Source: Clostridia bacterium (GTDB lineage: Bacteria > Bacillota > Clostridia > Oscillospirales > Acutalibacteraceae). From it: 47,238 bases of DNA. Location of the stretch: assembly GCA_029226955.1 (NCBI GenBank), contig JAQXZA010000023.1, positions 1 through 47,238 of the forward strand. Direction: 5' to 3'. How positions within the stretch are numbered: position 1 is the first letter of the stretch; the number at the start of each line of letters is the position of its first letter. Below, in pieces: positions 1,471-43,835 of the stretch. A program made the translations under genes and the position numbers. Below the pieces are notes generated by a model. The model was not told the origin of the DNA. It saw nothing but the letters and a program-made list of their open reading frames with translations, and searched no databases.

Positions 1471-1490
1471 ATAGACACAACAAACGAACA

Positions 1491-5905: not shown

Positions 5906-5926
5906 TCTTATTCGGGGGATAAAAAT

Positions 5927-8744: not shown

Positions 8745-8759
8745 GGGGAGTGAACGGTA

Positions 8760-10019: not shown

Positions 10020-10049
10020 TAATATTAAAAATATACAGTGGTATAAAGC

Positions 10050-10090
10050 AAAAGGACAGAAACGGATTTTCTTGTTTCTGTCCTTTTATA
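10050..10090 (+). terminator. Rho-independent terminator of the pilus assembly operon
   Basis: A perfect 14-base stem, AAAAGGACAGAAAC at 10050-10063 with GTTTCTGTCCTTTT at 10074-10087, loop GGATTTTCTT. The rest of the gap up to 10236 is AT-rich with nothing recognised. Confidence 0.92.
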
Positions 10091-10236
10091 TATTCTTAAT
10101 GTGCTATTTATATTATTAGTAGTATATGGTATAAATAGACAAATAATAATGAAAAAATTATGTAAAAAATCTATATGATAAAAAATATAACAAACAGTAT
10201 TTTAATAATTTGTTAAAATTGTAGAACAAAAATATC

Positions 10237-10264
10237 TTGAATAGATTTATTTTTATAGTATAAT
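10237..10264 (+). promoter_or_regulatory. SigA-type promoter of the minor pilin operon
   Basis: TTGAAT at 10237-10242 and TATAAT at 10259-10264 with a 16-base spacer. Start of transcription near 10271, giving a leader of about 63 bases before ATG 10334. Confidence 0.75.
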
Positions 10265-10333
10265 GTAATTAAGAATAACCGTTTATATACTTGATTGTAT
10301 TGTTGTGATATATGTAAGGAGGTTTTGACAGCT

Positions 10334-10858: not shown

Positions 10859-10882
10859 CATTATTAAGAAAGGAGAAGATTT

Positions 10883-11491: not shown

Positions 11492-11521
11492 CTTAATTTT
11501 ATTGAAAGGAGTTTTTTGTAT

Positions 11522-17500: not shown

Positions 17501-17662
17501 GGTAATTATGAAATTAAAAAGAAAGATTCTACTCAAACATATATTGCGGATTTCTTCGATGAAGACTATTGGAGATCAGAGTTTGTAATGCCTCTTGATG
17601 ATGAAAGCCGTACTTATGGCAGTGGCGAGATTACATTGACTGATCCTGTTTATTCAGATTAA
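11522..17662 (+). CDS. Giant prepilin-type protein, candidate pilus-tip adhesin
   Basis: About 2046 residues. The N-terminus has a prepilin leader (NSKKG, Gly12) and hydrophobic helix FSLPAAMGITAVLIILSASL, but Ala instead of Glu at +5; GspK-type tip pseudopilins and PilK of Clostridioides difficile share that loss. After the helix come beta-rich segments, several helical units resembling FIVAR repeats (about 530-840, another near 1615-1660, each with Tyr-x-Ala-L and an L..AI pattern), and more beta segments, some such as IYFNMPSGWKNAEV (about 1382) faintly like CBM25/26 sugar-binding modules. No sortase signal is present. AAGGAG at 11506-11511 suits ATG 11522 rather than TTG 11516. Last gene of the minor pilin operon. 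Function as a tip adhesin is inferred; the ligand is unknown. Confidence 0.75.
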   Translation: MQKKVTKNSKKGFSLPAAMGITAVLIILSASLIIIAANSISTTSTSINSRQAYLNVKSALEYAQQYYKTNISSINSSGTATTQYMIMRDNAGGTVNDGADISNVDTTADKTTYVIAEYTPASAPDVPKLKLTAYSHYSDSFGKKGLTSHLSVTLNVGSGKGTIMITPPYNKTIGGGGSTSPLSKNITLNVRQAPGQNWAMAYYTWTFKDEAGAYTGTSSSYDIKPTIDQANTNEKDRDGHRNVVHPAGKWVSTGSADKIGPPALATESGNGWLSSTFYPTDGNVNYFNIIFAKKGAVLNNADGTTNDDAQTCEMFHLWYLDPSDRNVYFEFLNKDIFYYKGSGWNGKTNLEEDSSGNPKDTILVYTKNTKTTVHFKVKGVDNSAVVPSISAPVINSVTVGGTPLSGDSYLGRGSRAVSNLRMTYEGCGWWTANVETNDNFKMEVTYSALGVNNTGIVTVTPNSDSEAWVYADAASGTIQSRLSESNANIALGVSSDSYVTIHAKSYDTKNKVVPKLNYKDVQLNSSSGRINLYNKILEAQQYKETNYTEESYAILKRVLNGEVDSAGNVIVQGAIDLYNDTTFISSQTGPTSAEKVAQADVKYNDKVEEIDNAINALIAKVCDDDTLDLLKDLIKQGDDIVTEQTNNGKYDSSYYGVFIASGGAYQTAKAMDLSTVTISEAETQIVDLQKAIDDINAHVLDRSRLEALITEATTLSTDTKYEQPYREALKTNIAGATSVLNTKSTTQSVIDTAANGLQRDINIVKSHPVTVLDTSNLATAISAADALLNRTEKLNCTDETYNALQAECNNANTVMTSATTQADVDNETAKLESAIKLFTVAKPSDSNDELLKDQKIKVWFKGLDTYTFTVYQSGDGSHSGISSEEIKNDVASGLSYTYINRELFHKIDITISKDGKDYTSNEISLDVADNNLVVDFEGTFDETNSTCTITEKKLTIIYIEAPDDTSYSPLVKVNGAEVQNAADVTYFAAKFVSDENNQVVINSKSDGSGTDTTAFKVSAGQFIVRYKTDTEVELINAKSIYPIYETTTGSSTGYRISGATIDTENLISPVILSNATSNYSIALTSSTKIVKEAIDVTPPSGKMVMVVDTKGVSKLNGKTPIAHIWGDKGDYDKFPGNALLRYEDTDYYYTIVDDDVKGLIISSSYDASGKSKVGGNIMLTSKKAGDRYVMLYHNDPGNNFNKTAYYPNSTYAVPQIERSVYTVDVGDMTASNITMAFVGGNKVRITNKSYYETYGSGVKNNQNGSTKISSSNLFGGKGGNANSMNRVGDSKLSAYYDWYEFKIPVDKLSNYTFEVCGLGSGSDTTYIQQISQAYGDVWITLNSKNKSGSVYDDVSVYTFDPEKNQMEYVYDASTDKTIEKTRIYFNMPSGWKNAEVSVSGSGVPTTLSFTNRMSSYSSNPSAVNYYYVDVDVNTPFVTFTAVKDDNTAYQCRTSLQGGDTVLFNPMLNSGYGGWEDYVSPQTCLKREVLKAQTMYYGSVIIGKYDDNGYVADNGSHTYNYAEHLYDEYKAYTRYNLPESEKPDSTISMKKIYSLGDSSADSNYVALHQWLTAYDNLYSAMSSAKKYIKDPITSSIHPGGGVYPEYKNRNSTQQYEEAGVNTLKSKLKNAEDKYLASSVSIDDLNTATKKLKVAISNVTVSSEGSITAIFYDAQRDAKRGAKIEIKYTTSGGITKTETVRDVNVEDFPLIRIFDTSITDVEFLVNGTSRGIVKDKMEKDSTWVFLDYSGSKYWKENTTYTYITTTTDTFEQTDATDAYIVNMKHEIDLTTGAEKPEYRSLVLYFNYDTNVKLASGESFQVKAGAYIFTNEDAGDSNSPFYGGTFNLYSDKSKAYFTNPVNYGELIGAKDAATLGWVDSNGVLSGTAKSTVSSINITARNSKIDTFRRYTSLQSMYFRYEDNDNPFVIKREFTLAAKDFVIASSATFDGSSSLGAHFYLKNTDTSSDSLRVEFKSDIHVKYRDRTGEEHSFAIRSGNYEIKKKDSTQTYIADFFDEDYWRSEFVMPLDDESRTYGSGEITLTDPVYSD

Positions 17663-30543: not shown

Positions 30544-31608
30544 ATGAAAATATCAAAAAAATCAGTTTTATCTTTAATATTATCAGCAACACTCACACTT
30601 ACAACAGCAGCGGTTTTTACAGGCTGCGGAAATAAATCCGATAACGCTGCCACCGCCGCAGACCAGTCGTCACAGGAAAAAGTTACAATAACAAATGTTT
30701 CTTATGACCCGACCAGAGAACTTTATGCGGCATATAACGAAATTTTTGCAAAACACTGGAAAGAAGAAACAGGACAGGACGTTGAAATAACACAGTCACA
30801 CGGCGGTTCAGGTAAACAGGCTCTTGAAGTTGCCAACGGTCTTGAAGCCGATGTAGTAACTCTTGCACTTGAATATGATGTAAAAGCCGTTCAGGACGCA
30901 GGGCTTATTGAGGACGGTTGGGTTAGTGAATTTGATAAGGACAGCTCTCCTTACACTTCAACAATAGTTTTCCTTGTACGAAAAGGCAATCCGAAAAATA
31001 TAAAGGACTGGGACGACCTTGTTAAAGACGGTGTCGGAGTTATTACTCCTAATCCGAAAACATCAGGCGGTGCAAGATGGAACTACCTTGCGGCGTGGTC
31101 TTATGCCGACAAGCTCTACAAGGGTGACGAAACAAAGATAAAGGATTTTATCAAGAAACTTTATCAGAACGTACTTGTGCTTGATTCGGGTGCAAGAGGT
31201 GCAACAACAACATTTGTAGAAAACGGACAGGGAGATGTCCTTATTGCGTGGGAAAACGAGGCTTATCTCTCTATTCAGGATAAGCCTGACGACTACGAAA
31301 TAGTAACTCCGAGTATAAGTATTCTTGCTCAGCCGTCAGTAGCGGTAGTTGATTCCGTTGTTGACAAAAGAGGAACAAGAAAGGTTGCCACAGAATATCT
31401 GAAATATCTGTATTCCGACGAGGCACAGAGAATTGCCGGTGACAATTATTATCGTCCGTCAAATGAAAAAATCCTGAAAGAATATTCAGATACATTTGAC
31501 CTTAACATTAACCTTGCAACAATCAAGGATTTCGGCGGCTGGGATAAAGCACAGAAAACACATTTTGCCGACGGCGGAGTCTTTGACCAGATTTATGATA
31601 AGAAATAA
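30544..31608 (+). CDS. sbp: Sulfate-binding lipoprotein of the ABC transporter
   Basis: A 354-residue extracellular solute-binding protein. A lipoprotein signal (hydrophobic stretch then VFTGC, Cys28) is followed by a Ser/Ala-rich linker and the sulfate-binding fold, with family motifs [33 protein letters not shown] and [18 protein letters not shown]. It captures sulfate (possibly thiosulfate) and passes it to CysT/CysW. GAGAGG lies ahead of the ATG. First gene of the sbp-cysT-cysW-cysA operon. Confidence 0.95.
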
Positions 31609-31617
31609 GGTGCAGTA

Positions 31618-32451
31618 ATGAGAAAAAAGGCAAACAAAAGAGTAATTCCGCTGTTCGGATTATCTATGGGAGTTACGCTTACAATACTCAGTCTTATAGT
31701 TCTTATACCACTTGCCTCTCTGGTGATATTCACCGCTCAGATGAGCTGGGACGAAATAATAGCAGTAATCACCCGTGACAGAGTGATTGCGAGTTTTGAG
31801 GTAAGTTTCCTGACATCGTTCATTGCGTCGGTTATCAATGCTGTAATGGGTGTTGTAATTGCCTGGGTTCTTGTACGGTATGATTTTCCGTTCAAAAAAT
31901 TGCTTGACGGTATGATTGAACTTCCGTTTGCCTTGCCTACGGCGGTAGCGGGCATTGCACTTACATCATTAACTGCTGACACAGGACTGATTGGCAGTTT
32001 CTTTGCAAGATTCGGAATACATATAGCATATACACGCATAGGCATAACGGTTGCACTGGTATTTATAGGCATACCTTTTGTAGTGCGTTCCGTTAAGCCG
32101 GTTCTTGAAAAGCTGGATTCAACCTATGAAGAAGCGGCTGGTGTGCTTGGTGCAAGCAGAACAAAGATTTTCTGGAAGATAATTTTTCCTGAAATAAGAC
32201 CGGCAGTATTTACGGGATTCGGTCTTGCATTCGGCAGATGTCTTGGCGAATACGGCAGTGTTGTTTTTATAGCCGGCAATAAGCCGTTTGAAACCGAAAT
32301 TACTCCGCTTATCATTATGTCGGAGTTACAGGAGTACGACTATTCAAGTGCAACAGCTATTGCCCTTGTTATGCTTGTTGCGTCATTCCTTATACTTTTT
32401 CTTGTAAACATCATTCAGTCAAGAAACGCAAAAATTATGAAGGGAGGCTGA
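31618..32451 (+). CDS. cysT: Sulfate ABC transporter permease CysT
   Basis: A 277-residue inner-membrane permease with about six helices. The EAA-type coupling motif is visible as EEAAGVLGASRTKIFWKIIF followed by the FGRCLGEYGSVVFIAGN region typical of sulfate permeases. It pairs with CysW to form the channel. AAGGTG precedes the ATG, 9 bases after sbp. Confidence 0.95.
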   Translation: MRKKANKRVIPLFGLSMGVTLTILSLIVLIPLASLVIFTAQMSWDEIIAVITRDRVIASFEVSFLTSFIASVINAVMGVVIAWVLVRYDFPFKKLLDGMIELPFALPTAVAGIALTSLTADTGLIGSFFARFGIHIAYTRIGITVALVFIGIPFVVRSVKPVLEKLDSTYEEAAGVLGASRTKIFWKIIFPEIRPAVFTGFGLAFGRCLGEYGSVVFIAGNKPFETEITPLIIMSELQEYDYSSATAIALVMLVASFLILFLVNIIQSRNAKIMKGG

Positions 32452-32455
32452 TACT

Positions 32456-33277
32456 ATGCACGAAGATACAAAGGGTTCAAAGTTTCTGAAATGGTTTTTA
32501 ATCGGTATAAGCATACTGTTTATTTTCGTTATGCTGGTACTGCCTCTTATTACCGTTATAACTGAATCGTTAAAAAAAGGAATAGAAACCTACTGGGAGG
32601 CAGTCAGTGACGAATATACCGTCAAGGCGGTTTTGCTTACCGTTGAGGCAACATTGTTTGCGGTAGTTATAAACACAGTATTCGGAGTTTTTGCCGCATG
32701 GACAATTACAAAATTCCGTTTCAGAGGAAAAAAGGTTCTTACAACACTTATTGATGTTCCTGTAACGGTTTCTCCGATTATAGCCGGTCTGATTTTTGTT
32801 CTTACATACGGCAGACAAAGTATTATCTATCCGTTTTTACAGGATATGGGTATTCAGGTTGTGTTTGCCGTACCCGGAATTATACTTGCAACGGTATTTG
32901 TAACATTTCCATTTATTTCAAGAGAACTTATTCCGGTGCTTGAAGCACAGGGAACGGACGAGGAGGAAGCGGCGGCACTTATGGGTGCAAACGGATTCAC
33001 GATTTTCAGAAAAATCACTTTTCCGCATATAAAGTGGGCTTTGCTGTACGGTATTGTGCTTTGTGCGGCAAGAGCAATGGGTGAATTTGGTGCCGTGTCC
33101 GTTCTGTCGGGACATTTAAGAGGAAAAACCAACACACTGCCTTTGCACGTTGAAATTCTGTTCAATGAATTTAAATATGTTCCGGCTTTTGCGGTAGCGT
33201 CAATACTTGTTATGATGGCGATTGTCATACTGATTATAAGAAGCGTTGTGGAATATAAAGGAAAGAAGGATGCCTGA
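32456..33277 (+). CDS. cysW: Sulfate ABC transporter permease CysW
   Basis: A 273-residue permease, partner of CysT, with about six helices. The coupling motif is EEEAAALMGANGFTIFRKI, and ARAMGEFGAVSVLSGHLRGK matches CysW proteins. It begins four bases after cysT, and its stop overlaps the start of cysA (TGATG), so the subunits are translationally coupled. Confidence 0.95.
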   Translation: MHEDTKGSKFLKWFLIGISILFIFVMLVLPLITVITESLKKGIETYWEAVSDEYTVKAVLLTVEATLFAVVINTVFGVFAAWTITKFRFRGKKVLTTLIDVPVTVSPIIAGLIFVLTYGRQSIIYPFLQDMGIQVVFAVPGIILATVFVTFPFISRELIPVLEAQGTDEEEAAALMGANGFTIFRKITFPHIKWALLYGIVLCAARAMGEFGAVSVLSGHLRGKTNTLPLHVEILFNEFKYVPAFAVASILVMMAIVILIIRSVVEYKGKKDA

Positions 33278-34335
33278 TGTATGTTGAACTTAAAAATATC
33301 AACAAGCAATTCGGAAATTATAAAGCATCGGATAATGTAAGCTTTGGCATAGAAAAAGGCAGACTTATCGGTCTTCTGGGGCCCAGCGGCAGCGGAAAAA
33401 CAACAATTCTGCGTATGATTGCCGGTCTTGAAACTCCCGACAGCGGCGAAATCATAATTGACGGAAAAGTTGTCAATAATACTCCGGCAAGCAAGAGGGG
33501 CATAGGCTTTGTATTTCAGAATTATGCTTTATTTCGTTATATGACGGTCTATGACAATATAGCCTTTGGTCTGAAAATTCAGAAAGCAGACAAAAAATAT
33601 ATTGATGAAAGAGTAAAGGAACTTATTTCGCTGACAGGACTCAAAGGACTTGAAAAACGTTATCCGAGTCAGCTTTCGGGCGGACAAAAGCAAAGAGTGG
33701 CGTTTGCCCGTGCCCTTGCACCTAATCCGAATCTTCTTTTGCTTGATGAACCTTTTGCCGCCATTGACGCAAAAGTAAGACAGGAACTGAGAAGTTGGCT
33801 TAAAAATATGATTGAAAAGCTGGGAGTTACAAGTATTTTTGTTACTCACGATCAGGACGAGGCTATTGAAGTAGCAGACGAAATCATAATCACAAATAAG
33901 GGCAGAGTTGAGCAGATGGGTACTCCGCTTGAAGTTTATCAGAATCCGAAAACCGCCTTTACAGCGTCGTTTTTCGGTCAGCCGTCAGAAATATCCGACT
34001 ATGGAATATTCAATACATTTGAAAAGATTGATAACTATGACAAGGTGTATATCCGTCCCGAATTTCTGAAAGTGACAAAGAAAGATGAGGAACAAAAATA
34101 CTCCGAGTCCTCTGTTGAAGGTGTTGTTGAAAAAACTTTGTTCAGAGGCAACAACATTGAAATTCAGCTACGTGTGAACGATAATATTTTGTTTGCAAGG
34201 AGAGGTCTTGACGAGCCGCCTGTTTCCGTTGGTGAAAAGGTCAATGTGTTTGTTTACAGAATACTTGTTGCACAGGGCGAAAAGGCTTATTTATTACAAA
34301 ATAAGGCTATAAAGGAAGAATATGTTGTAATATGA
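33277..34335 (+). CDS. cysA: Sulfate ABC transporter ATPase CysA
   Basis: A 352-residue ATPase powering the transporter. Walker A GPSGSGKTT (about 36-44), Q-loop FVFQNYALF, signature LSGGQKQRVAFARAL, Walker B NLLLLDEPF and the switch His in FVTHDQDEA are intact. About 110 C-terminal residues form a TOBE-like regulatory domain. Closes the transport operon; a terminator follows. Confidence 0.96.
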   Translation: MYVELKNINKQFGNYKASDNVSFGIEKGRLIGLLGPSGSGKTTILRMIAGLETPDSGEIIIDGKVVNNTPASKRGIGFVFQNYALFRYMTVYDNIAFGLKIQKADKKYIDERVKELISLTGLKGLEKRYPSQLSGGQKQRVAFARALAPNPNLLLLDEPFAAIDAKVRQELRSWLKNMIEKLGVTSIFVTHDQDEAIEVADEIIITNKGRVEQMGTPLEVYQNPKTAFTASFFGQPSEISDYGIFNTFEKIDNYDKVYIRPEFLKVTKKDEEQKYSESSVEGVVEKTLFRGNNIEIQLRVNDNILFARRGLDEPPVSVGEKVNVFVYRILVAQGEKAYLLQNKAIKEEYVVI

Positions 34336-34421: not shown

Positions 34422-34871
34422 TTATATATAATACATTAACTGTTCCTGACTTTCGTCAACTGCCTGTCGATAATGGTCAACAAGCTGTGCAAGTGTAAGC
34501 TGTTTTGCGTATTCCTGCATAAAATCCGTCATTTTGTCCCAAACATATACATCAACGGTTTTAAAAAGTAAAGAATCATACTGTGTAGAAAAATCAGCAC
34601 AGCTCAGTATGGTAAGGTCGAGAGCGTCAATTATTTCTTTCAGGGTAATTTTATCGGCGGGTCTGGTTATGACATATCCGCCCTTTGAGCCTTTAAGTCC
34701 TCTTATAAGTTTTGCCTGACGTAAAACAGTGAGTATCTGTTCGAGATATTTGCCCGAAATATTCTGACGTTTGGCGATACTGTCAACGGTGTCCGTTTCG
34801 TGATTTTCAGAATATATCGCAATATCAATCATAGCAATTATGCCAAATTCAACTTTTGTTGAGATTTTCAC
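34422..34871 (-). CDS. Rrf2-family transcription regulator, CymR-like
   Basis: A 149-residue winged-helix protein. The Rrf2 pattern is clear: KISTKVEFGIIAMIDIA, then IAKRQNISGKYLEQILTVLR (recognition helix region), KGSKGGYVITRPADKITLKE and the dimer helix. The three clustered cysteines that hold an Fe-S cluster in IscR are missing (only one Cys, in ILSCADF), so it more likely resembles CymR, which senses cysteine supply through a partner protein. GTG 34871 is chosen as the start because AAGGAGG lies ahead. It lies between the two sulfur operons and has an operator-like sequence at its own promoter; control of both is inferred. Confidence 0.87.
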   Translation of the reverse strand: MKISTKVEFGIIAMIDIAIYSENHETDTVDSIAKRQNISGKYLEQILTVLRQAKLIRGLKGSKGGYVITRPADKITLKEIIDALDLTILSCADFSTQYDSLLFKTVDVYVWDKMTDFMQEYAKQLTLAQLVDHYRQAVDESQEQLMYYI

Positions 34872-34897
34872 TTTTTCAGCCTCCTTATACATATAAA

Positions 34898-34916
34898 ACA
34901 TATCTGATTAGTAGTA
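34898..34916. promoter_or_regulatory. Operator-like site at the Rrf2-family gene promoter
   Basis: ACATATCTGATTAGTAGTA matches 12 of 19 positions of the site at 30296 and overlaps the -10 box and start of the regulator gene. It would allow self-repression. Confidence 0.5.
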
Positions 34917-34941
34917 TATCAACTGGCGGAAAATTTCTCAA
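34913..34941 (-). promoter_or_regulatory. Promoter of the Rrf2-family gene
   Basis: On the minus strand TTGAGA (34936-34941) and TATACT (34913-34918) with a 17-base spacer. Confidence 0.75.
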
Positions 34942-34970
34942 TGCTCAAATTTACAAAAAATATCCCAATA

Positions 34971-35029
34971 ACCTACCAAAATACTATGTAATACAACGAA
35001 AATATATAAAACCTATTGAAATACTATGT
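34971..35029. promoter_or_regulatory. Two operator-like sites ahead of the sulfur assimilation operon
   Basis: ACCTACCAAAATACTATGT (34971-34989) and ACCTATTGAAATACTATGT (35011-35029) share 16 of 19 bases and start exactly 40 bases apart. The first matches 15 of 19 bases of the sbp operator. The second covers the -35 box and part of the spacer of the promoter at 35016. Confidence 0.65.
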
Positions 35030-35044
35030 AAAGTGGGTTATAAT
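35016..35044 (+). promoter_or_regulatory. Promoter of the sulfur assimilation operon
   Basis: TTGAAA at 35016-35021 and TATAAT at 35039-35044, spacer 17. Start near 35051, leader of about 57 bases. Confidence 0.82.
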
Positions 35045-35107
35045 ATCGTTGCACATTGAAAATATGACAAATTATGCAATATATAACAAAGTCGGGCAGG
35101 TGACATT

Positions 35108-36346
35108 ATGAAATTCAACACAGCGTTGCTGCATAACAATTTTCAGTCGGAATCGTCAACGGGAGCAACCGTGATGCCGGTATATCAGGTAAGTGCATTT
35201 TCGCACGATTCCCCCGAAACTCTTGAAAAAATATTCAACAATAAAGCACCGGGTTTTGCCTACTCACGAATAAGCAACCCTACGGTTGATTCGTTTGAAA
35301 AGCGTATAGCCGCACTTGAAAAAGGCATAGGTGCCGTTGCCTGTTCTTCGGGTATGGCGGCGGTTACAATGTCACTTCTCGGTATTCTTAAATCAGGTGA
35401 TGAAGTCATAGCCGGTTCGTCACTTTTCGGCGGAACGATTGACCTGTTCGGCGACTTGAAGGCTTTCGGGATAACAACAAAATTTGTTGATGATTTTACT
35501 ACGGAAGAAATTGAACCGCTTATTACAGAAAAAACAAAGGCGATTTTTACGGAACTTATCGGAAACCCAAGACTTGATGTCGTTGATATTGAAAGTGTTT
35601 CATCACTTGCACACAGATATGGTATTCCGCTTATTATCGACAGCACAACGGCAACACCGTATCTTATTCACCCGATTGATTACGGTGCTGATATAGTGGT
35701 TCACTCAACGTCAAAGTACATAAACGGCAGTGGAGATGCAATAAGCGGTGTGATTATCGACAGCGGCAATTTTAAATGGGACGGAACAAAGTATGATTTT
35801 GCTGTAAAATACAAAAAGTACGGAAAATATGCCTATCTCACAAATCTGAGAAACGGTATATGGCGAAACGTCGGTTGTTGTCTTGCACCAATGAATGCTT
35901 TTCTTAACTCGATAGGTCTTGAAACGCTCGGATTAAGAATGGAAAGGCTGTGCGACAACGCATTGAGGCTTGCGGAATTTCTGAGTGGTTTTGATGATAT
36001 TGAAGTAAATTATCCGGCACTGCCTGACAACAAATATTATCCGCTTGTCAGAAAACAGTTCAAAGGCAAGGGCGGTGCAATTCTTACAATAAGAACAGGC
36101 AGTAAAAAACGTGCATTCAGTCTTATGAACAATCTGAATATTCCGCTTGTCGCAACAAATATAGGTGATGTCAGAACCCTTGTTATTCACCCGTCAAGCA
36201 CGATTTATGCACATTCTTCCGAACAGCAGAAAATCAGTGCCGGAGTTTATGACGATACTATCAGAATAAGTATAGGAATTGAAGATATTGATGACCTGAA
36301 AGAAGATTTCAGACAGGCTATTGAAAAATCAAAGGAGGAAAACTAA
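35108..36346 (+). CDS. metY: PLP-dependent homocysteine synthase, MetY-like
   Basis: A 412-residue Cys/Met-metabolism PLP enzyme. Hallmarks: FAYSRISNPTVDSFEKRIA, the CSSGMAAVTMSLL cofactor-binding stretch, IIDSTTATPYL and the Schiff-base lysine K203 in VVHSTSKYINGSGD. Family members use O-acetyl- or O-succinylhomoserine. The Wolinella succinogenes enzyme in an equivalent cluster takes sulfur from a protein thiocarboxylate instead of free sulfide; the carrier, activator and peptidase genes downstream suggest the same here. A cystathionine synthase or free-sulfide activity cannot be excluded by sequence. AGGTGA precedes the ATG. First gene of an eleven-gene operon. Confidence 0.85.
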   Translation: MKFNTALLHNNFQSESSTGATVMPVYQVSAFSHDSPETLEKIFNNKAPGFAYSRISNPTVDSFEKRIAALEKGIGAVACSSGMAAVTMSLLGILKSGDEVIAGSSLFGGTIDLFGDLKAFGITTKFVDDFTTEEIEPLITEKTKAIFTELIGNPRLDVVDIESVSSLAHRYGIPLIIDSTTATPYLIHPIDYGADIVVHSTSKYINGSGDAISGVIIDSGNFKWDGTKYDFAVKYKKYGKYAYLTNLRNGIWRNVGCCLAPMNAFLNSIGLETLGLRMERLCDNALRLAEFLSGFDDIEVNYPALPDNKYYPLVRKQFKGKGGAILTIRTGSKKRAFSLMNNLNIPLVATNIGDVRTLVIHPSSTIYAHSSEQQKISAGVYDDTIRISIGIEDIDDLKEDFRQAIEKSKEEN

Positions 36347-37207
36347 ATGGCTGTTGATTATTCAACTTTAAAAAAAGGCGGATTTATGCGTCAGAAACAA
36401 AAGAATAATTTTTCGTTAAGACTGCGTGTTGTCGGCGGTAATCTTACGGCAAAACAGCTTGCGAAAATTGCGGAGGTTGCGGAAAAATTCGGTGACGGTT
36501 ACGTTCACCTTACTTCCCGTCAGAGTGTGGAAATTCCGTTTATAAAACTTGACGATATTGACGAAGTAAAGAACGCACTTGCTGAGGGTGATGTTCAGCC
36601 CGGTGTCTGCGGCCCGAGAGTAAGAACCATTACGGCTTGTCAGGGACAGGCTATATGTCCGAGCGGCTGTATTGATACATACGCTCTTGCAAAAGAACTT
36701 GACGAAAGATATTTTGCACGGGAACTGCCGCATAAATTCAAATTCGGTATTACAGGCTGTCAGAACAACTGTCTTAAAGCTGAGGAAAACGACCTTGGCA
36801 TAAAGGGTGGAATACAAGTAAAATGGCGTGAAAAAGAATGTATAGGTTGCGGCGTGTGTGAAAAGGCTTGCCGTAAGGGTGCAATATCAATCAAGGACGG
36901 AAAAATCGAAATTGATGACGGTAAATGCAATTTCTGCGGAAGATGTTGTAAATCCTGTCCTGTTGATGCGTGGGATACGGTTCACGGATACATTGTTTCA
37001 TTCGGCGGTCTTTTCGGCAACAGTATCAACAAGGGTGAAACGATAATTCCGTTTATCGAGGATAAGGAAAAACTTTTTGCAATATGCGATGCGGCAATAC
37101 ATTTCTTTGAGGACAATGCAAAATCAGGTGAACGCTTTAAGTTTACTGTTGACAGAGTCGGCAAAGAAAAATTCAAAGAAGTAATTATGGAGGCATACAA
37201 TGGCTGA
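36347..37207 (+). CDS. Siroheme [4Fe-4S] sulfite reductase with ferredoxin domain
   Basis: A 286-residue single-chain enzyme reducing sulfite to sulfide with six electrons. An N-terminal ferredoxin-like half (VHLTSRQSVEIPF) leads to the cluster/siroheme ligands CQGQAIC (Cys-x5-Cys) and CQNNC (Cys-x3-Cys). Two ferredoxin motifs are inserted after these, CIGCGVCEKAC and CNFCGRCCKSC. It is much shorter than CysI (about 570) and resembles AsrC or the small archaeal Dsr-like proteins. AsrA/AsrB partners are absent, so electrons probably come directly from ferredoxin. Starts directly after the metY stop and overlaps the next gene. Confidence 0.88.
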   Translation: MAVDYSTLKKGGFMRQKQKNNFSLRLRVVGGNLTAKQLAKIAEVAEKFGDGYVHLTSRQSVEIPFIKLDDIDEVKNALAEGDVQPGVCGPRVRTITACQGQAICPSGCIDTYALAKELDERYFARELPHKFKFGITGCQNNCLKAEENDLGIKGGIQVKWREKECIGCGVCEKACRKGAISIKDGKIEIDDGKCNFCGRCCKSCPVDAWDTVHGYIVSFGGLFGNSINKGETIIPFIEDKEKLFAICDAAIHFFEDNAKSGERFKFTVDRVGKEKFKEVIMEAYNG

Positions 37208-37445
37208 GTTTATTATTGATGATACGGTTGATATTACAGATGTGGTTTGTCCGACGACATTTGTCAAAGCAAAGGTTGCACTTGAAGAACTTGACGACGG
37301 TCAGATTCTTTCTATAAGAATGAACGACGGAGAACCTGTACAGAATGTACCGAGAAGCATAAAGGAAGAAGGTCATCAGATATTAAAGCTGACTGACAAC
37401 GGCGACGGTACATACAATCTTATAGTAAAAAAGGTTGGTGATTAA
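37200..37445 (+). CDS. TusA-family sulfur carrier protein
   Basis: An 81-residue protein with the two-layer TusA/SirA pattern. The key cysteine, Cys17, lies in DVVCPTTFVKAKVALEEL; TusA proper has CPxP, here CPTT, a variant often linked to sulfate or tetrathionate genes. It could carry a persulfide between the sulfite reductase and the downstream carrier, or act on sulfite; this is inferred from position. ATGGAGG precedes its ATG; the start overlaps the end of the sulfite reductase gene by eight bases. Confidence 0.8.
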   Translation: MAEFIIDDTVDITDVVCPTTFVKAKVALEELDDGQILSIRMNDGEPVQNVPRSIKEEGHQILKLTDNGDGTYNLIVKKVGD

Positions 37446-37754
37446 ATGGCTTTAAGGGTTAATGAAGAAAATTTTGAAAAAGAAGTGCTGAACTCTGAAA
37501 TTCCCGTGCTTGCGGATTTTTATTCCGACAGTTGTGTGCCGTGCAAACGTTTGTCGCCGGTTCTTGCCGAAATTGAAGAAGAACTTTCGTCAGACATTAA
37601 GTTTGTTAAAATAAATATAAATTTTGACGGTACGATTGCTGAAAAATACGAGGTTTATTCCGTTCCTACGCTTGTATTTTTTAAAAGCGGCAGTGAACTT
37701 TCAAGGCTCAGCGGAGCGGTTGACAAAAAGGCAATACTTGAATTATTAAAATAA
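37446..37754 (+). CDS. Thioredoxin-like protein
   Basis: A 102-residue thioredoxin fold. The active site is Cys30-Val-Pro-Cys33 (SDSCVPCKRLSP), in place of WCGPC, and the cis-proline is in YSVPTLVFF. The loss of Trp and Gly suggests a specialised partner rather than the housekeeping thioredoxin: it may reduce the APS reductase, the TusA-like protein or a persulfide. It begins directly after the TusA stop codon (TAAATG). Confidence 0.88.
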   Translation: MALRVNEENFEKEVLNSEIPVLADFYSDSCVPCKRLSPVLAEIEEELSSDIKFVKININFDGTIAEKYEVYSVPTLVFFKSGSELSRLSGAVDKKAILELLK

Positions 37755-37770
37755 AAGGGAGATTGTGAAA

Positions 37771-37977
37771 ATGTTTATAACAGTTGCAGGCGAAAAAAAA
37801 GAAGTAAAAGACGGACTTACGGTAGCACAGCTTATTGTTGACGAAAATGTAGAAACACCACAGTATGTTACGGTTTCGGTAAACGATAATTTTGTTGACA
37901 GCAAGGACTTTGAAAGCACCGTAATAAAAGATAATGACAGTATAGAATTTCTGTACTTTATGGGAGGCGGTCAGTAA
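37771..37977 (+). CDS. hcyS: ThiS/MoaD-like sulfur carrier, HcyS-like
   Basis: A 68-residue ubiquitin-like protein (MFITVAGEKKEV, then VTVSVNDNFV). It ends in FMGGGQ: the Gly-Gly needed for adenylation and thiocarboxylate formation is present but masked by a final Gln. In Wolinella succinogenes HcyS a terminal Ala must be removed by HcyD first; here Gln would play that part. I start at ATG 37771, nine bases after GGGAG, rather than GTG 37765. Its stop overlaps the start of the activating enzyme (TAATG). A thiamin ThiS is less likely, as no thiG or thiF-thiazole genes are near. Confidence 0.82.
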   Translation: MFITVAGEKKEVKDGLTVAQLIVDENVETPQYVTVSVNDNFVDSKDFESTVIKDNDSIEFLYFMGGGQ

Positions 37978-38789
37978 TGGCATTTACAAATGAACAGCTT
38001 GAACGTTACTCACGTCATATAATCTTAAAAGAAGTCGGAGCAAAAGGACAGAAAAAACTGCTCAATGCAAAGGTGCTTATAATCGGAGCCGGCGGCTTGG
38101 GTGCACCGGCGGCTATGTATCTTGCGGCGGCCGGAGTTGGTACAATCGGAATAGCTGACGCAGATGAGGTTGACCTTTCAAATCTTCAAAGACAGATTAT
38201 TCACTCTACAAAAGATGTCGGAAAAGCAAAGGTTATTTCCGCAAAGGAAACAATGGAGGCTATGAACCCCGATGTTACAGTAAATACTTACCGTACTTTT
38301 GTAACGAGCGAAAACATAATGGATTTGATAAAGGATTATGACTTTATAATAGACGGTACGGATAATTTTCCGGCAAAATTCCTGATAAACGATGCTTGTG
38401 TTATGGCAAAAAAACCGTTTTCACACGCCGGAATAATCCGCTTTAAAGGTCAGCTTATGACATACGTGCCGGGAAAAGGTCCGTGTTACAGATGTGTTTT
38501 CAAAAATCCGCCGCCAAAGGACGCTGTGCCGACTTGTAAACAGGCTGGAGTTATCGGTGCAATGGGCGGTGTAATCGGAAGTTTACAGGCAATGGAGGCT
38601 GTAAAGTATATTCTGGGAGTCGGTGACCTTCTGACAGGTTATCTTCTTACATTTGACGCAATAAAGATGGAATTTCGCAAGGTGAAACTTCCGCAAAAAA
38701 CAGATGACTGTGAAGTATGCGGAACTCACCCTACCATAACCGAACTTATAGATTATGAACAGGCAGAATGTGACGGTGTGCATTTATGA
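37977..38789 (+). CDS. hcyF: MoeB/ThiF-like adenylyltransferase, HcyF-like
   Basis: A 270-residue E1-like enzyme that adenylates the C-terminus of a ubiquitin-like sulfur carrier. Rossmann motif GAGGLGAPAAMYLAAAGVG (about 36-54), ATP-site residues in DLSNLQRQIIHSTKDVGKAK, zinc pairs CYRC and CEVC, and a conserved cysteine in PTCKQAGVIGA. There is no C-terminal rhodanese domain, so sulfur comes from another source, here probably sulfide or the TusA-like protein. Overlaps both neighbours by a few bases, supporting a role with the carrier and the peptidase. Confidence 0.88.
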   Translation: MAFTNEQLERYSRHIILKEVGAKGQKKLLNAKVLIIGAGGLGAPAAMYLAAAGVGTIGIADADEVDLSNLQRQIIHSTKDVGKAKVISAKETMEAMNPDVTVNTYRTFVTSENIMDLIKDYDFIIDGTDNFPAKFLINDACVMAKKPFSHAGIIRFKGQLMTYVPGKGPCYRCVFKNPPPKDAVPTCKQAGVIGAMGGVIGSLQAMEAVKYILGVGDLLTGYLLTFDAIKMEFRKVKLPQKTDDCEVCGTHPTITELIDYEQAECDGVHL

Positions 38790-39196
38790 TTTATCTTAAA
38801 AAAACAGATTATGAAAAAATACTGAACCACGCAAAAAGCGAATTGCCGAATGAAGCCTGTGGTCTTATTGCCGGAGAGATAAAAGACGGCAATAAGCTGA
38901 TAAAAAAAGTTTATCTGCTGACAAATACAGACCGTTCAAACGAGCATTTTTCGATAGACCCGAAAGAACAGCTTTCCGCTATAAAGGATATGCGTGAAAA
39001 TAATCTTGTTCCTCTCGGCAACTGGCATTCTCACCCCGAGTCGCCGTCAAGACCGTCAGAGGAGGATAAAAGACTGGCTTATGACTCAAAGGCAAGTTAT
39101 ATGATTCTTTCGCTTATGGATTCGGAAAATCCTGTTCTTAATTCGTTTAAAATAAGCGGAAACACAGCGGAAAAGGAAAATCTGGTAATTGAGTAA
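38786..39196 (+). CDS. hcyD: JAMM/MPN metallopeptidase, HcyD-like
   Basis: A 136-residue zinc peptidase of the Mec/JAB family. The catalytic set is complete: Glu23 in NEACGLIAGE and the JAMM motif H81-S-H83-P with Ser91 and Asp94 (HSHPESPSRPSEED). Relatives remove the C-terminal residue of a sulfur carrier (HcyD) or release cysteine from a carrier adduct (Mec). Here it should trim the final Gln of the carrier and free homocysteine from it. Its start overlaps the end of the activating-enzyme gene by four bases. Confidence 0.88.
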   Translation: MIYLKKTDYEKILNHAKSELPNEACGLIAGEIKDGNKLIKKVYLLTNTDRSNEHFSIDPKEQLSAIKDMRENNLVPLGNWHSHPESPSRPSEEDKRLAYDSKASYMILSLMDSENPVLNSFKISGNTAEKENLVIE

Positions 39197-39211
39197 ATAC
39201 AGGGTGAAGTT

Positions 39212-40891
39212 ATGAAGACAGAAAGAATAAAAACCGATATTCTGATAATCGGCGGCGGTACGGCTGGCTGTTATGCGGCACTGACAATTTCCGAAAATTC
39301 CGACGCAAAGGTGCTTGTCTGTGAAAAGGCACATATAAAACGCAGTGGCTGTCTTGCCGCCGGTGTAAACGCACTCAATGCTTATATAGTGGACGGAAAG
39401 ACTCCCCGGGATTATGTGGATTATGCAAAAAAGGACGCTGACTCTATTGTCCGTGATGATTTGCTTATTACTATGGCTCAGAAACTGAATAAGGTTACAG
39501 AACGTCTTGAACAGCTCGGACTTGTTATCCTTAAAGATAAGGACGGAAAATATGTAACCCGTGGCAACCGTAACCTGAAAATAAACGGTGAAAATATAAA
39601 GCCTATTCTTGCAGAGGCAGTTGAAAATCTTCCGAATGTACAGGTACTCAACCGTGTTAATATAATTGATTTTTCCGTAAGCAATAACCGCATTAACGGT
39701 GCGTTTGGCATAGGAATAGAAAACGACACATTTTATGTTATACAGGCAAAAGCCGTAATAGTAGCAACAGGCGGTGCGGCAGGACTTTACAGACCGAATA
39801 ATCCGGGCTTTTCACGTCATAAAATGTGGTATCCGCCATTCAATACAGGTGCGGGCTATGCAATGGGAATAAAAGCCGGTGCGGAGATGACGACTTTTGA
39901 AATGCGTTTTATAGCTTTGCGTTGTAAGGATACAATAGCTCCTACGGGAACGCTTGCACAGGGTGTTGGTGCAAAACAGATAAATTCACTCGGAGAGGTT
40001 TACGAGAATAAATACGGCATTACAACTTCACAGAGAGTTTACGGTACAGTCAACGAAAATCAGGAGGGCAGAGGACCTTGTTTTCTGAAAACCGAGGGAA
40101 TATCTCCCGAACAGGACGAGGCATTAAAAAAGGCTTATCTCAATATGGCACCGTCACAGACTGTCAAATGGATAGAAAGCGGCAAAAATCCGTCAGAACA
40201 GAATGTTGAAATTGAGGGAACAGAGCCTTATATTGTCGGCGGTCATACCGCAAGCGGATATTGGGTTGACACAAAGAGGGAAACAACAATAAACGGTCTT
40301 TTTGCCGCCGGTGATGTTGCCGGAGGTTGTCCTCAGAAATACGTTACAGGTGCATTGGCTGAGGGTGAAATTGCGGCATTGTCGGCAGTGGAATTTTTAA
40401 AGAATAATGACGGAAACAACATAAGCGAAAGTGATATTCAGAGCCATAAAGATGAAGTATTGAATTTTCTGACGGGCGAAAACAGGATTTTTACAACAGA
40501 ACAGCTTGAAGAGGCAATGCAGACGGTTATGGACAGCTATGCCGGCGGAATAAAAACAAATTACCGCTATAACGAAAAACAGCTTGAACTTGCAGACGAA
40601 AAAATAAAGAATATTTTAAAGCTGTCAGACGATTTAAAAGCTGATGATTTTCAGGAGCTTATGTATATTTATGAACTGCGTGAAAGACTCATTGTTTGCA
40701 GAAGTGTTATAGCACATCTGAAAGCAAGACACGAAACACGCTGGCACAGCTTTGCCGAAAATCTTGATTATCCTGAAAAAGATGACAAGAATTATCTCAG
40801 ATATGTAAATTCACGTCTTGAAAACGGAGAAATAAAAATAATTCTTCGTAATCTTGTTGAGGAGGGTGCAGTCTATGAGCATAGCCATTGA
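39212..40891 (+). CDS. aprA: Adenylylsulfate (APS) reductase alpha subunit, AprA-like
   Basis: A 559-residue FAD flavoprotein. The dinucleotide fold is DILIIGGGTAGCYAAL (about 10-25); AprA-type motifs include CLAAGVNALNAYIVDGKTP, TGGAAGLYRPNNPG and GLFAAGDVAGGCPQKYVTG. With the beta subunit it reduces APS to sulfite and AMP. It belongs to the fumarate reductase superfamily, but neighbours cysD/cysN and the ferredoxin subunit settle the role. Somewhat shorter than AprA of sulfate-respiring bacteria (about 650). No QmoABC lies near, consistent with assimilatory use. It overlaps aprB by 17 bases. Confidence 0.9.
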   Translation: MKTERIKTDILIIGGGTAGCYAALTISENSDAKVLVCEKAHIKRSGCLAAGVNALNAYIVDGKTPRDYVDYAKKDADSIVRDDLLITMAQKLNKVTERLEQLGLVILKDKDGKYVTRGNRNLKINGENIKPILAEAVENLPNVQVLNRVNIIDFSVSNNRINGAFGIGIENDTFYVIQAKAVIVATGGAAGLYRPNNPGFSRHKMWYPPFNTGAGYAMGIKAGAEMTTFEMRFIALRCKDTIAPTGTLAQGVGAKQINSLGEVYENKYGITTSQRVYGTVNENQEGRGPCFLKTEGISPEQDEALKKAYLNMAPSQTVKWIESGKNPSEQNVEIEGTEPYIVGGHTASGYWVDTKRETTINGLFAAGDVAGGCPQKYVTGALAEGEIAALSAVEFLKNNDGNNISESDIQSHKDEVLNFLTGENRIFTTEQLEEAMQTVMDSYAGGIKTNYRYNEKQLELADEKIKNILKLSDDLKADDFQELMYIYELRERLIVCRSVIAHLKARHETRWHSFAENLDYPEKDDKNYLRYVNSRLENGEIKIILRNLVEEGAVYEHSH

Positions 40892-41189
40892 TAAAAACAA
40901 ATGTATAGGCTGCGGAAAATGTCATAACGTTTGCCCCGGCAGTCTTATAAAAATCGGGGAGGACGGAAAAGCATATATAAAATATCCCAAGGACTGCTGG
41001 GGTTGTACGTCTTGTATAAAGGAATGTCCCGTATATGCGATAAGGTTTTTTCTCGGGGCAGACATCGGCGGAATGGGCAGCCTCGTTCATACCGAAAAGG
41101 ACGGCGATATTCTGAAATGGATAATTGAGCGTCCCGACGGCACAATATCTGAAATTGACATCAACCGTAAAGAATCAAATAAATATTAA
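40875..41189 (+). CDS. aprB: APS reductase beta subunit, AprB-like ferredoxin
   Basis: A 104-residue protein with two [4Fe-4S] motifs, CIGCGKCHNVCPG and CWGCTSCIKECPVYAI, the layout of AprB; it feeds electrons to the FAD of AprA. It is clearly shorter than dissimilatory AprB (about 150), lacking the long C-terminal tail that wraps AprA. ATG 40875 is preceded by GGAGGG, which lies within the end of aprA; longer readings from 40854 are unlikely. Confidence 0.92.
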   Translation: MSIAIDKNKCIGCGKCHNVCPGSLIKIGEDGKAYIKYPKDCWGCTSCIKECPVYAIRFFLGADIGGMGSLVHTEKDGDILKWIIERPDGTISEIDINRKESNKY

Positions 41190-41201
41190 GGAGGCAACGC
41201 T

Positions 41202-42101
41202 ATGAGCGAGTTTTCACATCTTGATGAGCTTGAAGCAGAAGCTATTTACATAATAAGAGAAGTAGCGGCAGAGTGTGAAAAGCCTGTAATGCTTTATTCT
41301 ATCGGCAAGGACAGTTCCGTTATGCTGCACCTTGCAATGAAGGCTTTTTATCCCGAAAAGCCGCCGTTTCCCTTTTTACATATTGACACAACGTGGAAAT
41401 TCAAAGATATGATAAAATTCCGTGACGATACCGCAAAAAAACTCGGTATTGAAATGCTTGTATATACAAATGAAGAGGGCGTGAAAAAAGGCATAAATCC
41501 CTTTGACCACGGTTCAGCCTATACGGATATTATGAAAACTCAAGCTTTAAAACAGGCACTTACAAAATACGGTTTTACAGCGGCTTTCGGCGGCGGAAGA
41601 CGTGACGAGGAAAAGTCCAGGGCAAAGGAGAGAATTTTCTCTTTCAGAAATCAGGCACAGGCTTGGGATCCGAAAAATCAGCGTCCTGAAATGTGGAAAC
41701 TTTATAATACAAAAATAAACAAGGGCGAGAGCATACGTGTTTTCCCAATTTCAAACTGGACTGAAAAGGATATATGGCAATATATAAAGAGGGAAAAAAT
41801 TGATATTGTTCCGTTGTATTTTGCGGCAGAACGTCCTGTTGTATATCGTGACGGCAATATAATTATGGTTGATGACGACCGTTTCCGCCTTAATCCCGGT
41901 GAAAAGCCTGTCTATAAATCGGTTCGTTTCAGAACACTCGGCTGTTATCCGCTTACGGGAGGAATAGAGTCAACTGCAACAACGCTTGATGAAATAATTG
42001 ACGAAACTTTAAGTTCTGTATCTTCCGAACGTACGTCAAGAGTTATCGACAACGAGGCTCAGGGAAGTATGGAACGCAGAAAAAGGGAGGGTTATTTCTG
42101 A
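41202..42101 (+). CDS. cysD: Sulfate adenylyltransferase subunit 2, CysD
   Basis: A 299-residue ATP pyrophosphatase-type enzyme that forms APS from ATP and sulfate. The PP-loop is [14 protein letters not shown] (about 32-45); [20 protein letters not shown] and the [15 protein letters not shown] stretch are typical of CysD. Needs the GTPase CysN. AAGGAGG precedes the ATG; its stop overlaps the cysN start (TGATG). Confidence 0.97.
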
Positions 42102-43789
42102 TGAAAGGGTTACTTAAATTTATAACCTGCGGAAGTGTAGATGACGGAAAGTCAACACTCATAGGTCATATTCTGTATGATGCAAAGCTTTTGTATGCCG
42201 ATCAGCAAAAGGCACTGGAACTCGACAGCAAGGTCGGCAGCCGTAACGGTGCTATTGACTATTCATTGTTGCTTGACGGACTTATGGCTGAACGTGAACA
42301 GGGCATTACAATAGATGTTGCATACCGTTATTTTACTACCGACAACCGCAGCTTTATTGTTGCAGATACACCCGGACACGAGGAATACACCAGAAATATG
42401 GCTGTCGGTGCTTCATTCGCTGACCTTGCCGTAATTCTTGTTGATGCGTCACAGGGAGTTCTGGTTCAGACAAGGCGACACGCAAGAATATGTAAAATGA
42501 TGGGTATTCGTTACTTTGTTTTTGCGGTAAATAAAATGGATCTTGTCGGTTACAGCAAGGAACGTTTTGATGAAATTCAGAAACAGATTGCTGAACTTAA
42601 AGACGAGCTTGCACTGAATAACGTAAAAATCATTCCTCTTTCGGCAACGGAAGGCGACAACGTAACAACAAAATCCGAAAACATTAAATGGTATGACGGA
42701 GAACCACTGCTTGAATATCTCGAAAAAGTTGACATAGATTCCGGAAATGACGAACAGGGATTTTATATGCCTGTTCAGAGGGTTTGTCGTCCTGACCATA
42801 CATTCAGGGGCTTTCAGGGACAAATTGAGTCAGGCAAAATAAATGTAGGTGATGTTATTACCGCTTTGCCGAGTAACGAAAAGGCTAAAATAAAATCAAT
42901 TCTTGTTACTGACAAGGACTCACAAAGTGCCTGTGCAGGTCAGCCTGTAACCGTTACGCTTGACAAAGAGGTTGATGTTTCAAGGGGTTGTGTGCTTGTA
43001 AAGGACACAAATATTGCGGCATATAAAAAGCTTACGGTTACGCTTTTGTGGATGGACGATGAGCCGCTTTCCGAGGGAAAAGACTACCTTGTAAAACTCG
43101 GAACAAAGACAATTCCCGGTGTTGTCACAAAAATAACCTATGCTGTTGATGTGAATACAGGTGAGCATATAAATACAGAAACATTATCGAAAAACGGAAT
43201 TGCAGTATGTGAAATTCTGCTTTCTGAGGCTATTGTCGTAGATTTGTTTTCACTTCACAGAACACTCGGTGAACTGATACTTATTGACAGGGTGTCAAAT
43301 ATGACTTCGGCTTGCGGAATTGTCGAAAACATAAGCGGAAAAGGCGGTTCATTCTCCGATAAGGCATCATTTAAAAACGGCAGTATAGAGGCAAGAGGAG
43401 ATATTTTTGAAGAATTTTATTATGATGCCGGCAGTCTTAATGTTTTGAAATACAGAACAGTAAGTTCTACATATTCGGTCGGTGATGAAATACAGATAAA
43501 GGGAAAAAGTTACAGTTATCCCGAAAGTTTCGATATTATTGTTCTGCGTGACGAGGCGGCAGTAAAGATAAGAAACAGAAAAATAACGGATATTATAAGT
43601 CTTTCTGATTATAAATACGATGATTTTCCTGTTGTCAACGGTCGTGGCTTTGAAGTGCTTGTTTCAGATGAAAAGGAATTTGAAGATTTCATTAACGGCT
43701 ACTACTGTCTGAATGATGCAGAAAAAAATCATTTCTTTGCAAAGTGGATGAAATTCGACACATACCGTAAAGTTGTAATGGCGGAATAA
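42101..43789 (+). CDS. cysN: Sulfate adenylyltransferase subunit 1 (GTPase), CysN
   Basis: A 562-residue translational-type GTPase that drives APS formation. G1 GSVDDGKSTLIG (about 11-22), G3 DTPGHEEY, G4 VNKMD, then two beta-barrel domains. No APS kinase (CysC) domain is fused, and no cysC or cysH is in the operon, so APS rather than PAPS is the intermediate. About 100 residues longer at the C-terminus than simple CysN (about 475), with no domain I can name there. Last gene of the operon. Confidence 0.95.
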   Translation: MKGLLKFITCGSVDDGKSTLIGHILYDAKLLYADQQKALELDSKVGSRNGAIDYSLLLDGLMAEREQGITIDVAYRYFTTDNRSFIVADTPGHEEYTRNMAVGASFADLAVILVDASQGVLVQTRRHARICKMMGIRYFVFAVNKMDLVGYSKERFDEIQKQIAELKDELALNNVKIIPLSATEGDNVTTKSENIKWYDGEPLLEYLEKVDIDSGNDEQGFYMPVQRVCRPDHTFRGFQGQIESGKINVGDVITALPSNEKAKIKSILVTDKDSQSACAGQPVTVTLDKEVDVSRGCVLVKDTNIAAYKKLTVTLLWMDDEPLSEGKDYLVKLGTKTIPGVVTKITYAVDVNTGEHINTETLSKNGIAVCEILLSEAIVVDLFSLHRTLGELILIDRVSNMTSACGIVENISGKGGSFSDKASFKNGSIEARGDIFEEFYYDAGSLNVLKYRTVSSTYSVGDEIQIKGKSYSYPESFDIIVLRDEAAVKIRNRKITDIISLSDYKYDDFPVVNGRGFEVLVSDEKEFEDFINGYYCLNDAEKNHFFAKWMKFDTYRKVVMAE

Positions 43790-43802
43790 AAACATTAAAA
43801 CA

Positions 43803-43835
43803 ACGGACAGTCCTTTATTGGATTGTCCGTTTTTC
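43803..43835 (+). terminator. Terminator of the sulfur assimilation operon
   Basis: AACGGACAGTCC / GGATTGTCCGTT, loop TTTATT (one G-T pair), then TTTTC. The bases from 43836 to about 44000 hold nothing recognised. Confidence 0.85.

Follow-up and report, generated by a model that had tools for sequence, protein, structure and literature searches.

The window analysed here is the whole of a 47,238-nucleotide stretch (contig JAQXZA010000023.1 of GenBank assembly GCA_029226955.1, C23 in our numbering) from a Clostridia bacterium of the Acutalibacteraceae, whose genome of 2.6 Mb in 150 contigs is rated 100% complete. Its + strand carries 11 genes that span 35108-43789 with gaps between neighbours of -17 to +16 bases, and that together would lead from sulfate to homocysteine by way of a protein sulfur carrier, HcyS:

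35108..36346, + strand: MetY, short-loop homocysteine synthase of the putative carrier-dependent type (PF01053, 382 bits)
36347..37207, + strand: small siroheme sulfite reductase with a 2[4Fe-4S] ferredoxin insert (PF01077, PF03460, Fer4)
37200..37445, + strand: TusA-like sulfur-relay protein (PF01206, 69 bits)
37446..37754, + strand: thioredoxin, CVPC (TIGR01068, 99 bits, above cut-off)
37771..37977, + strand: HcyS, ThiS-like sulfur carrier (TIGR01683, 64 bits, and the tail comparison below)
37977..38789, + strand: HcyF, MoeB/ThiF-like carrier adenylyltransferase (PF00899, 296 bits)
38786..39196, + strand: HcyD, JAMM metallopeptidase with E...HxH-x7-SxxD (PF14464)
39212..40891, + strand: AprA, adenylyl-sulfate reductase alpha subunit (NF005331, 973 bits, cut-off 557)
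40875..41189, + strand: AprB-like ferredoxin subunit with 4Fe-4S motifs (TIGR02060, 55 bits, below the cut-off of 136)
41202..42101, + strand: CysD, sulfate adenylyltransferase small subunit (TIGR02039, 488 bits, above cut-off)
42101..43789, + strand: CysN, sulfate adenylyltransferase large subunit (TIGR02034, 527 bits, above cut-off)

An earlier sequence-only reading had named these genes as one tight operon holding an HcyS-HcyF-HcyD-MetY set, and both points are borne out, the second by gene content, catalytic motifs, the carrier tail and the place of MetY in its phylogeny. These four proteins make up the protein-thiocarboxylate methionine biosynthesis of Wolinella succinogenes, reportedly described by Krishnamoorthy and Begley in 2011, from which all of the chemistry proposed here is carried over. 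It is very probable, in our view, that this set lets the operon convert sulfate to homocysteine on a protein carrier. MetY is a Cys/Met pyridoxal phosphate (PLP) enzyme whose nearest model, the O-acetylhomoserine (OAH) sulfhydrylase subfamily, scores 431 bits, under its cut-off of 495, and the nearest NCBIfam model of the sulfite reductase is AsrC at 167 bits, below its cut-off of 324. HcyF matched the ThiF domain alone in the Pfam scan, with no rhodanese domain. At its C-terminus CysN is extended by about 150 residues (43340-43786), the last 149 of them without a Pfam match, and the CysN scan gave no match to a fused adenylyl sulfate (APS) kinase.

The module was followed across 125 loci, comprising the window, L025-L028, L041-L120, L168, L176 and L181-L218, which came from a JAMM alignment scan of named genome contigs (the best 80 of at least 560 relatives were kept), some being added by whole-genome searches. 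Hidden Markov models derived from the proteins of the window and the matches in L041-L120 located 123 HcyD-type JAMM places in these loci. The same contig occurs in two collections in the pairs L025/L052 and L026/L059, and many loci are close kin, so the counts are of loci and not of species. For 98 of the 123 places the flanks reach 5 kb or more upstream and 1.5 kb or more downstream, and 84 of these have both HcyS and HcyF; we call them core loci. They hold TusA in 82 cases, MetY in 70, sulfite reductase in 65, thioredoxin in 52, CysD in 40, AprA in 38 and CysK in 14. The search for a conserved gene set, proposed by the sequence-only reading, thus gave a positive answer, and the grouping is not due to chance, since TusA and MetY recur so consistently. 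The TusA-like gene had been presented as an addition to the known set; it is indeed there, but it is a standard feature, as SirA/TusA was already tabulated for operon type 4e in 2006 (PMC1779556, Table 1, row 4e). TusA is also kept in 17/19 core loci without sulfite reductase, so it probably acts at the carrier step, and Iyer et al. propose the same by analogy to rhodanese (PMC1779556). In a sample of 398 genomes from the window's phylum, 54 hold a relative of HcyD at E <=1e-20, and some of these relatives lie in CysO-type clusters.

Sequence motifs of the HcyD-linked set were counted as well. The JAMM residues of HcyD are intact in the window and in 123/123 rows, the thioredoxin CxxC in 68/69, the paired CxxC of HcyF in 108/110, the cysteine pattern of sulfite reductase in 68/73 and the lysine pattern of MetY in 89/92. 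The Cys-Pro pattern of TusA was found in 70/99 rows, where either the pattern is too narrow or the site is variable.

The carrier tail gives a further sign. The window HcyS ends in FLYFMGGGQ, one residue beyond Gly-Gly, and the HcyD of Wolinella is said to trim a carrier tail beyond Gly-Gly. Counting carriers of at least 40 bits, on the same strand as HcyD and no more than 6 kb from it, each of the 104 continues past MGGG by 1 to 18 residues, by exactly one in 65 cases, and the letters vary. As controls we took 49 ThiS-type carriers, namely 19 of the 24 matches of a first search (the other five being close HcyS relatives) and the 30 best of a second. One control, L228, has a JAMM gene and a three-residue tail. 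The other 48 lack a JAMM gene within about 1.5 kb to either side, and 45 of them end at Gly-Gly; L006 has a two-residue tail, L021 one of 12 residues, and L229 is fused within a longer frame. Removal of the HcyD-linked tails, whose letters vary, would be the task of HcyD. Two ThiS-like carriers per locus occur in L189, L191 and L192, one with an HcyS-type tail and the other ending in GGG or GGGA. Two structures in the PDB resemble members of the HcyS pathway without bearing its names: 2K5P, deposited as 'ThiS', in which the aligned part runs to residue 70 of 78 with MGGGK as its end, and 2KKS, an 'uncharacterized' JAMM protein that is also the best PDB relative of the window HcyD at 50% identity.

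The MetY of the window and that of Wolinella (PDB 3RI6) both lack about 10 residues, including the PDPSYHG stretch, that other OAH sulfhydrylases possess. Loop lengths in 108 rows fall into 71 with 14-15 residues, 32 with 23-25 and five distant enzymes with 2-6. The group with 14-15 residues comprises the window, 3RI6 and further rows that come from the genus or from HcyD-linked loci; at 15 residues the window MetY does not have the canonical PDPSYHG-like loop of 23-25. Four PDB rows have loops of 24-25 residues, one of them named methionine gamma-lyase, and the genome's own MetY paralogs on C94 and C120 have a long loop as well (26-27 residues, on a slightly wider alignment span). Long-loop OAH sulfhydrylases are reported to take free sulfide. 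Within the genus, 6/37 genomes hold an HcyS-type MetY (at least 63% identity), and five of these six also have a close HcyS; the MetY of the sixth, G027, is located at the end of a contig. The best MetY was read for 24 of the 31 genus genomes without an HcyS-type one, and 24/24 have the long loop. Across the phylum, 14/14 loci with HcyS and MetY carry a short-loop MetY, L195 having a long-loop one in addition; L204 combines a carrier, a JAMM domain within a longer frame and a short-loop MetY, while L207 and L214, in which no carrier was detected, have a long-loop MetY. Where the operon is split, in G023, MetY and HcyD are still adjacent (L064, whose MetY is identical to that of G023).

Because circularity had to be avoided, the MetY tree was rebuilt by a quick method without the loop columns and the eight columns on each side. 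One split still separated 93 short from 50 long rows, with a Shimodaira-Hasegawa-like approximate likelihood ratio test (SH-aLRT) value of 100 and the window on the side of 3RI6, and it persisted when two long-branched rows were left out. The nearest rows to the window were uncultured Clostridia and Ruminococcus sp. HAN027, which supports a clostridial genome of gut or rumen, in line with the probable gut Firmicute of the sequence-only reading.

Several observations weigh against this interpretation. No biochemistry was seen for any Firmicute. In the tree 3RI6 sits on a very long branch, and the tree was made by the quick method only. Tail and peptidase do not always go together: weaker second carriers (below 40 bits) in JAMM loci end in GGG (L189) or GGGA (L191 and L192), and the JAMM-less ThiS of L006 carries a two-residue tail too. 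A short-loop MetY occurs in L176, L197 and L212 with no carrier detected there. In addition, 14 core loci have no MetY within 10 kb. Four of their genomes hold a short-loop MetY elsewhere (G454, G456, G282 and G423, in the last at its other HcyS locus) and two MetY fragments in G455 appear to be a broken copy; for the remaining 9/14 no short-loop MetY was found elsewhere, the unread matches being fragments of no more than 39% identity and some of the G457 and G458 matches stopping short of the loop. CysK is present in three of the nine, L198, L199 and L205. From these nine genomes it follows that the carrier must have additional partners, and in some bacteria it probably serves cysteine synthases.

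Other sulfur genes in the genome bear on how far the operon's role extends. It has two CysK (TIGR01139, above cut-off), one CysM-like enzyme and a MetA-type homoserine acyltransferase. Three full Cys/Met PLP enzymes are present, all of the OAH-sulfhydrylase type by similarity and loop; MetB or MetC of this fold was not seen, the next match scoring 36 bits and other cystathionine-lyase folds lying outside the search. ThiG is on C10 and a ThiS ending in GGG on C137, both separate from the operon, and no MoaE was found in the genome, in a search whose control was positive in 11/14. A second cluster, on C34 (locus L037:5161-11545), comprises a CysM-like enzyme, a JAMM protein, a MoaD-E1-rhodanese fusion in which Gly-Gly precedes the linker, a type 2A encapsulin shell (PF19307, 319 bits), a cysteine desulfurase with a 150-residue N-terminal extension (PF00266, 462 bits) and a serine acetyltransferase that scores above the cut-off of the EpsC model and below that of CysE. 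By its gene content, the genome carries two predicted protein-carrier routes beside ordinary enzymes. The claim that homocysteine is the sole entry of reduced sulfur holds for the operon alone; for the organism it fails, given the two CysK, the CysM/CysO/JAMM cluster and the two long-loop OAH sulfhydrylases elsewhere. The absence of cysteine synthase was likewise correct within the operon but not for the genome, and the proposed search for missing cysK and metB came out against the first and, for the Cys/Met PLP fold, in favour of the second. The absence of cysH extends to the whole genome, where PF01507 matches CysD only.

An encapsulin cluster of the kind on C34 lies beside the HcyS module in 16/125 loci (L080, L085, L089, L090, L091, L095, L096, L101, L103, L104, L105, L114, L118, L119, L120 and L189), and in 15/16 all labelled genes are on one strand. 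Pfam confirmed the shells of L104, L090 and L096, the three of the 16 that were scanned. In L104 (Ruminococcus sp. YE71) the order is acetyltransferase, CysM, CysO/E1/rhodanese, encapsulin, desulfurase, MetY, TusA, thioredoxin, HcyS, HcyF and HcyD, and the reverse order of the blocks is found in Ruminobacter amylophilus (L090) and three Fibrobacter loci (L089, L114 and L120). No sulfite reductase is present in 12/16 of these loci, the other four being L080, L095, L120 and L189; among core loci it occurs in 4/12 with encapsulin versus 61/72 without (Fisher p 0.0005, relatedness ignored). This pattern would fit, as a tentative and rather doubtful idea, an HcyS module that acts as a plug-in moved between sulfate reduction and an encapsulated cysteine desulfurase with its CysO-E1-rhodanese fusion, giving a cystathionine-free transsulfuration. 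If true, cysteine sulfur would pass through persulfide and protein thiocarboxylate to homocysteine, shielded from free sulfide by the shell and the carriers. Eleven core loci with neither encapsulin nor sulfite reductase speak against a clean swap, as do L189, which has everything, and a piece of CysN at the edge of L104, where sulfate genes may adjoin.

For the window we propose the following route. Sulfate would be imported by an ABC transporter encoded just upstream, converted by CysDN to APS, by AprAB to sulfite and by the small siroheme reductase to sulfide. HcyD would remove the terminal Gln of HcyS and so expose Gly-Gly, HcyF would adenylate this end, and sulfide would convert it to the HcyS thiocarboxylate; going by co-occurrence, TusA probably helps in the handover of sulfide and thioredoxin in keeping it reduced. 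The short-loop MetY would then add the thiocarboxylate to an activated homoserine, probably O-acetylhomoserine, and HcyD would finally cleave homocysteine off the carrier. For the Wolinella MetY, PMC6271081 states that sulfur is taken from a protein thiocarboxylate.

Alternative readings differ chiefly in where the sulfur comes from and where it goes. MetY could use free sulfide while the carrier, adenylyltransferase and JAMM protein perform another sulfur job, such as thiamin or molybdopterin synthesis or tRNA thiolation. It is true that the solved enzymes closest to MetY are ordinary OAH sulfhydrylases, with 3RI6 only fifth, and that some genomes with an HcyS locus gave no short-loop MetY; but MetY groups with the carrier-dependent enzyme of Wolinella and lacks the loop of the others, and it is retained in 70/84 core loci. 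Thiamin or molybdopterin as the carrier's only use, which the sequence-only reading had set out as its own counter-case, is unlikely because the genome has a separate ThiS and ThiG and no MoaE, and we regard free-sulfide use as very improbable overall. We give still less credence to HcyS as a ubiquitin-like modifier, with HcyF as its E1, HcyD as a deconjugase and sulfur transfer secondary. Its neighbours are sulfur-assimilation genes with no E2-like gene among the operon's families, and a JAMM protein and a tail are reportedly needed in the Wolinella sulfur pathway as well. What speaks for it is that HcyD matches a desampylase model, though at 79 bits and below the cut-off of 130, and that Iyer et al. 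2006 predict ubiquitin-like conjugation for operons with E1-like and JAB genes (PMC1779556).

Two further readings keep the carrier in sulfur assimilation. It is unlikely that in this organism the carrier feeds cysteine besides homocysteine, via CysK or the separate CysM: the operon has no CysK, and the CysM of the genome lies in a CysO-type carrier cluster of its own, even though CysK occurs in 14/84 core loci (with L198, L199 and L205 having CysK without MetY) and MetY resembles enzymes called bifunctional OAH/O-acetylserine (OAS) sulfhydrylases. Somewhat less unlikely is that the sulfur of HcyS is a TusA persulfide, ultimately from cysteine, rather than sulfate-derived sulfide. TusA is present in 82/84 core loci, including 17/19 of those without sulfite reductase, and in eight core loci that have no sulfite reductase an encapsulin-desulfurase cluster accompanies the HcyS module; in the window, however, the sulfite reductase abuts MetY and a full sulfate-reducing set shares its operon. 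Homocysteine synthesis from sulfate on HcyS is the reading we retain here.

Upstream and downstream features complete the locus:

30544..34335, + strand: sulfate ABC transporter (substrate-binding protein 30544-31608, CysT 31618-32451, CysW 32456-33277, CysA 33277-34335)
34422..34901, - strand: Rrf2-family regulator, CymR-like (Pfam Rrf2 91 bits; NCBIfam CymR 87.5 bits, cut-off of 195 not reached)
35016..35044, + strand: promoter-like TTGAAA-17-TATAAT, 5' of MetY (35012..35044 with its box)
43802..43831, + strand: terminator-like hairpin, 3' of CysN, with a 12-pair stem and a T-rich tail

The substrate-binding protein, CysT and CysW score 476, 368 and 350 bits in NCBIfam, all above cut-off, and the transporter ATPase reaches 342.9 bits with the sulfate subfamily model (cut-off 342.75), the top-ranked PhnT2 model being under its own cut-off. 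The Rrf2 gene lies just upstream of the operon and divergent from MetY, and transporter and regulator probably belong to the operon's unit. An 8-mer, CCTATTGA, overlaps the -35 element of the MetY promoter and is kept in 15/17 Rrf2-MetY intergenic regions; in the window (34902-35107) it is a possible candidate site for the CymR-like regulator. We claim no regulon, because a search with the MetY promoter box at up to two mismatches gave one exact match, the MetY promoter itself, and one with two mismatches, and the reversed box used as a control gave 6. Elsewhere in the window, 706-17662 holds a type IV pilus-like cluster with a 2048-residue open reading frame (11516-17662) that starts prepilin-like in translation, and 1-492, at the contig edge, is the 3' end of a bacterial 23S rRNA.

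Three sequence signs, namely the tail, the MetY clade with its loop, and the neighbours, would mark likely carrier-fed homocysteine synthesis versus ordinary OAH sulfhydrylases, and for many gut and rumen bacteria would put right annotations like 'homocysteine synthase' or 'thiamine biosynthesis ThiS'. That one genome has two carrier pathways next to enzymes of the free-sulfide type also raises the question of why both run. The link to encapsulins would give the type 2A shells a testable role, that of channelling cysteine sulfur into cysteine and methionine via protein carriers. In the open-licence literature we found no publication on encapsulin with thiocarboxylate, and those combining encapsulin and homocysteine concern other subjects, judged by title and the start of the abstract; for the encapsulin link, the MetY loop signature and the carrier-tail comparison no earlier report was found there.

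The operon itself belongs to an already known type of pathway. It shares with the Wolinella system all four proteins and, compared here, the MetY clade with its loop deletion; a carrier tail past Gly-Gly is reportedly common to both. It differs in belonging to a Firmicute and in that its unit contains or adjoins AprAB, a thioredoxin and a CymR-like regulator, gene order lying outside this comparison. Linkage to sulfate reduction is shared as well, as backed by Table 1 of Iyer, Burroughs and Aravind 2006, where operon type 4e covers W. succinogenes, G. metallireducens, six Firmicutes (including C. thermocellum and D. hafniense) and others (PMC1779556). By that table, type 4e and the window have in common the ThiS-like carrier, JAB, rhodanese-less E1, SirA/TusA, sulfate ABC transporter, ATP sulfurylase, sulfite reductase and OAH sulfhydrylase. 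In contrast to type 4e, APS is here predicted to be reduced by AprAB; CysH is missing from the genome, and the operon showed no APS kinase. The 3'-phosphoadenylyl sulfate (PAPS) reductase/adenylylsulfate kinase of the 2006 entry may be a label that covers CysD, to which the PF01507 match here belongs. The CysO/CysM/Mec pathway (types 4c and 4d in the same table, PMC1779556) follows a like logic of carrier, E1, JAMM and PLP enzyme, but in this genome it forms the second, separate cluster on C34, with its carrier fused to E1-rhodanese and an encapsulin alongside. With the type 2A encapsulin cysteine-desulfurase systems (PMC8346489, PMC8049743) that cluster shares an SrpI-like shell and a desulfurase with a long N-terminus, and the serine acetyltransferase and rhodanese named as encapsulin partners in the available part of PMC8346489. 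MoaD and ThiF appear nowhere in that part, nor CysO or rhodanese in PMC8049743. Unlike those systems, the clusters described here have the rhodanese within a CysO-E1-rhodanese fusion, and the HcyS module adjoins them in 16 loci.

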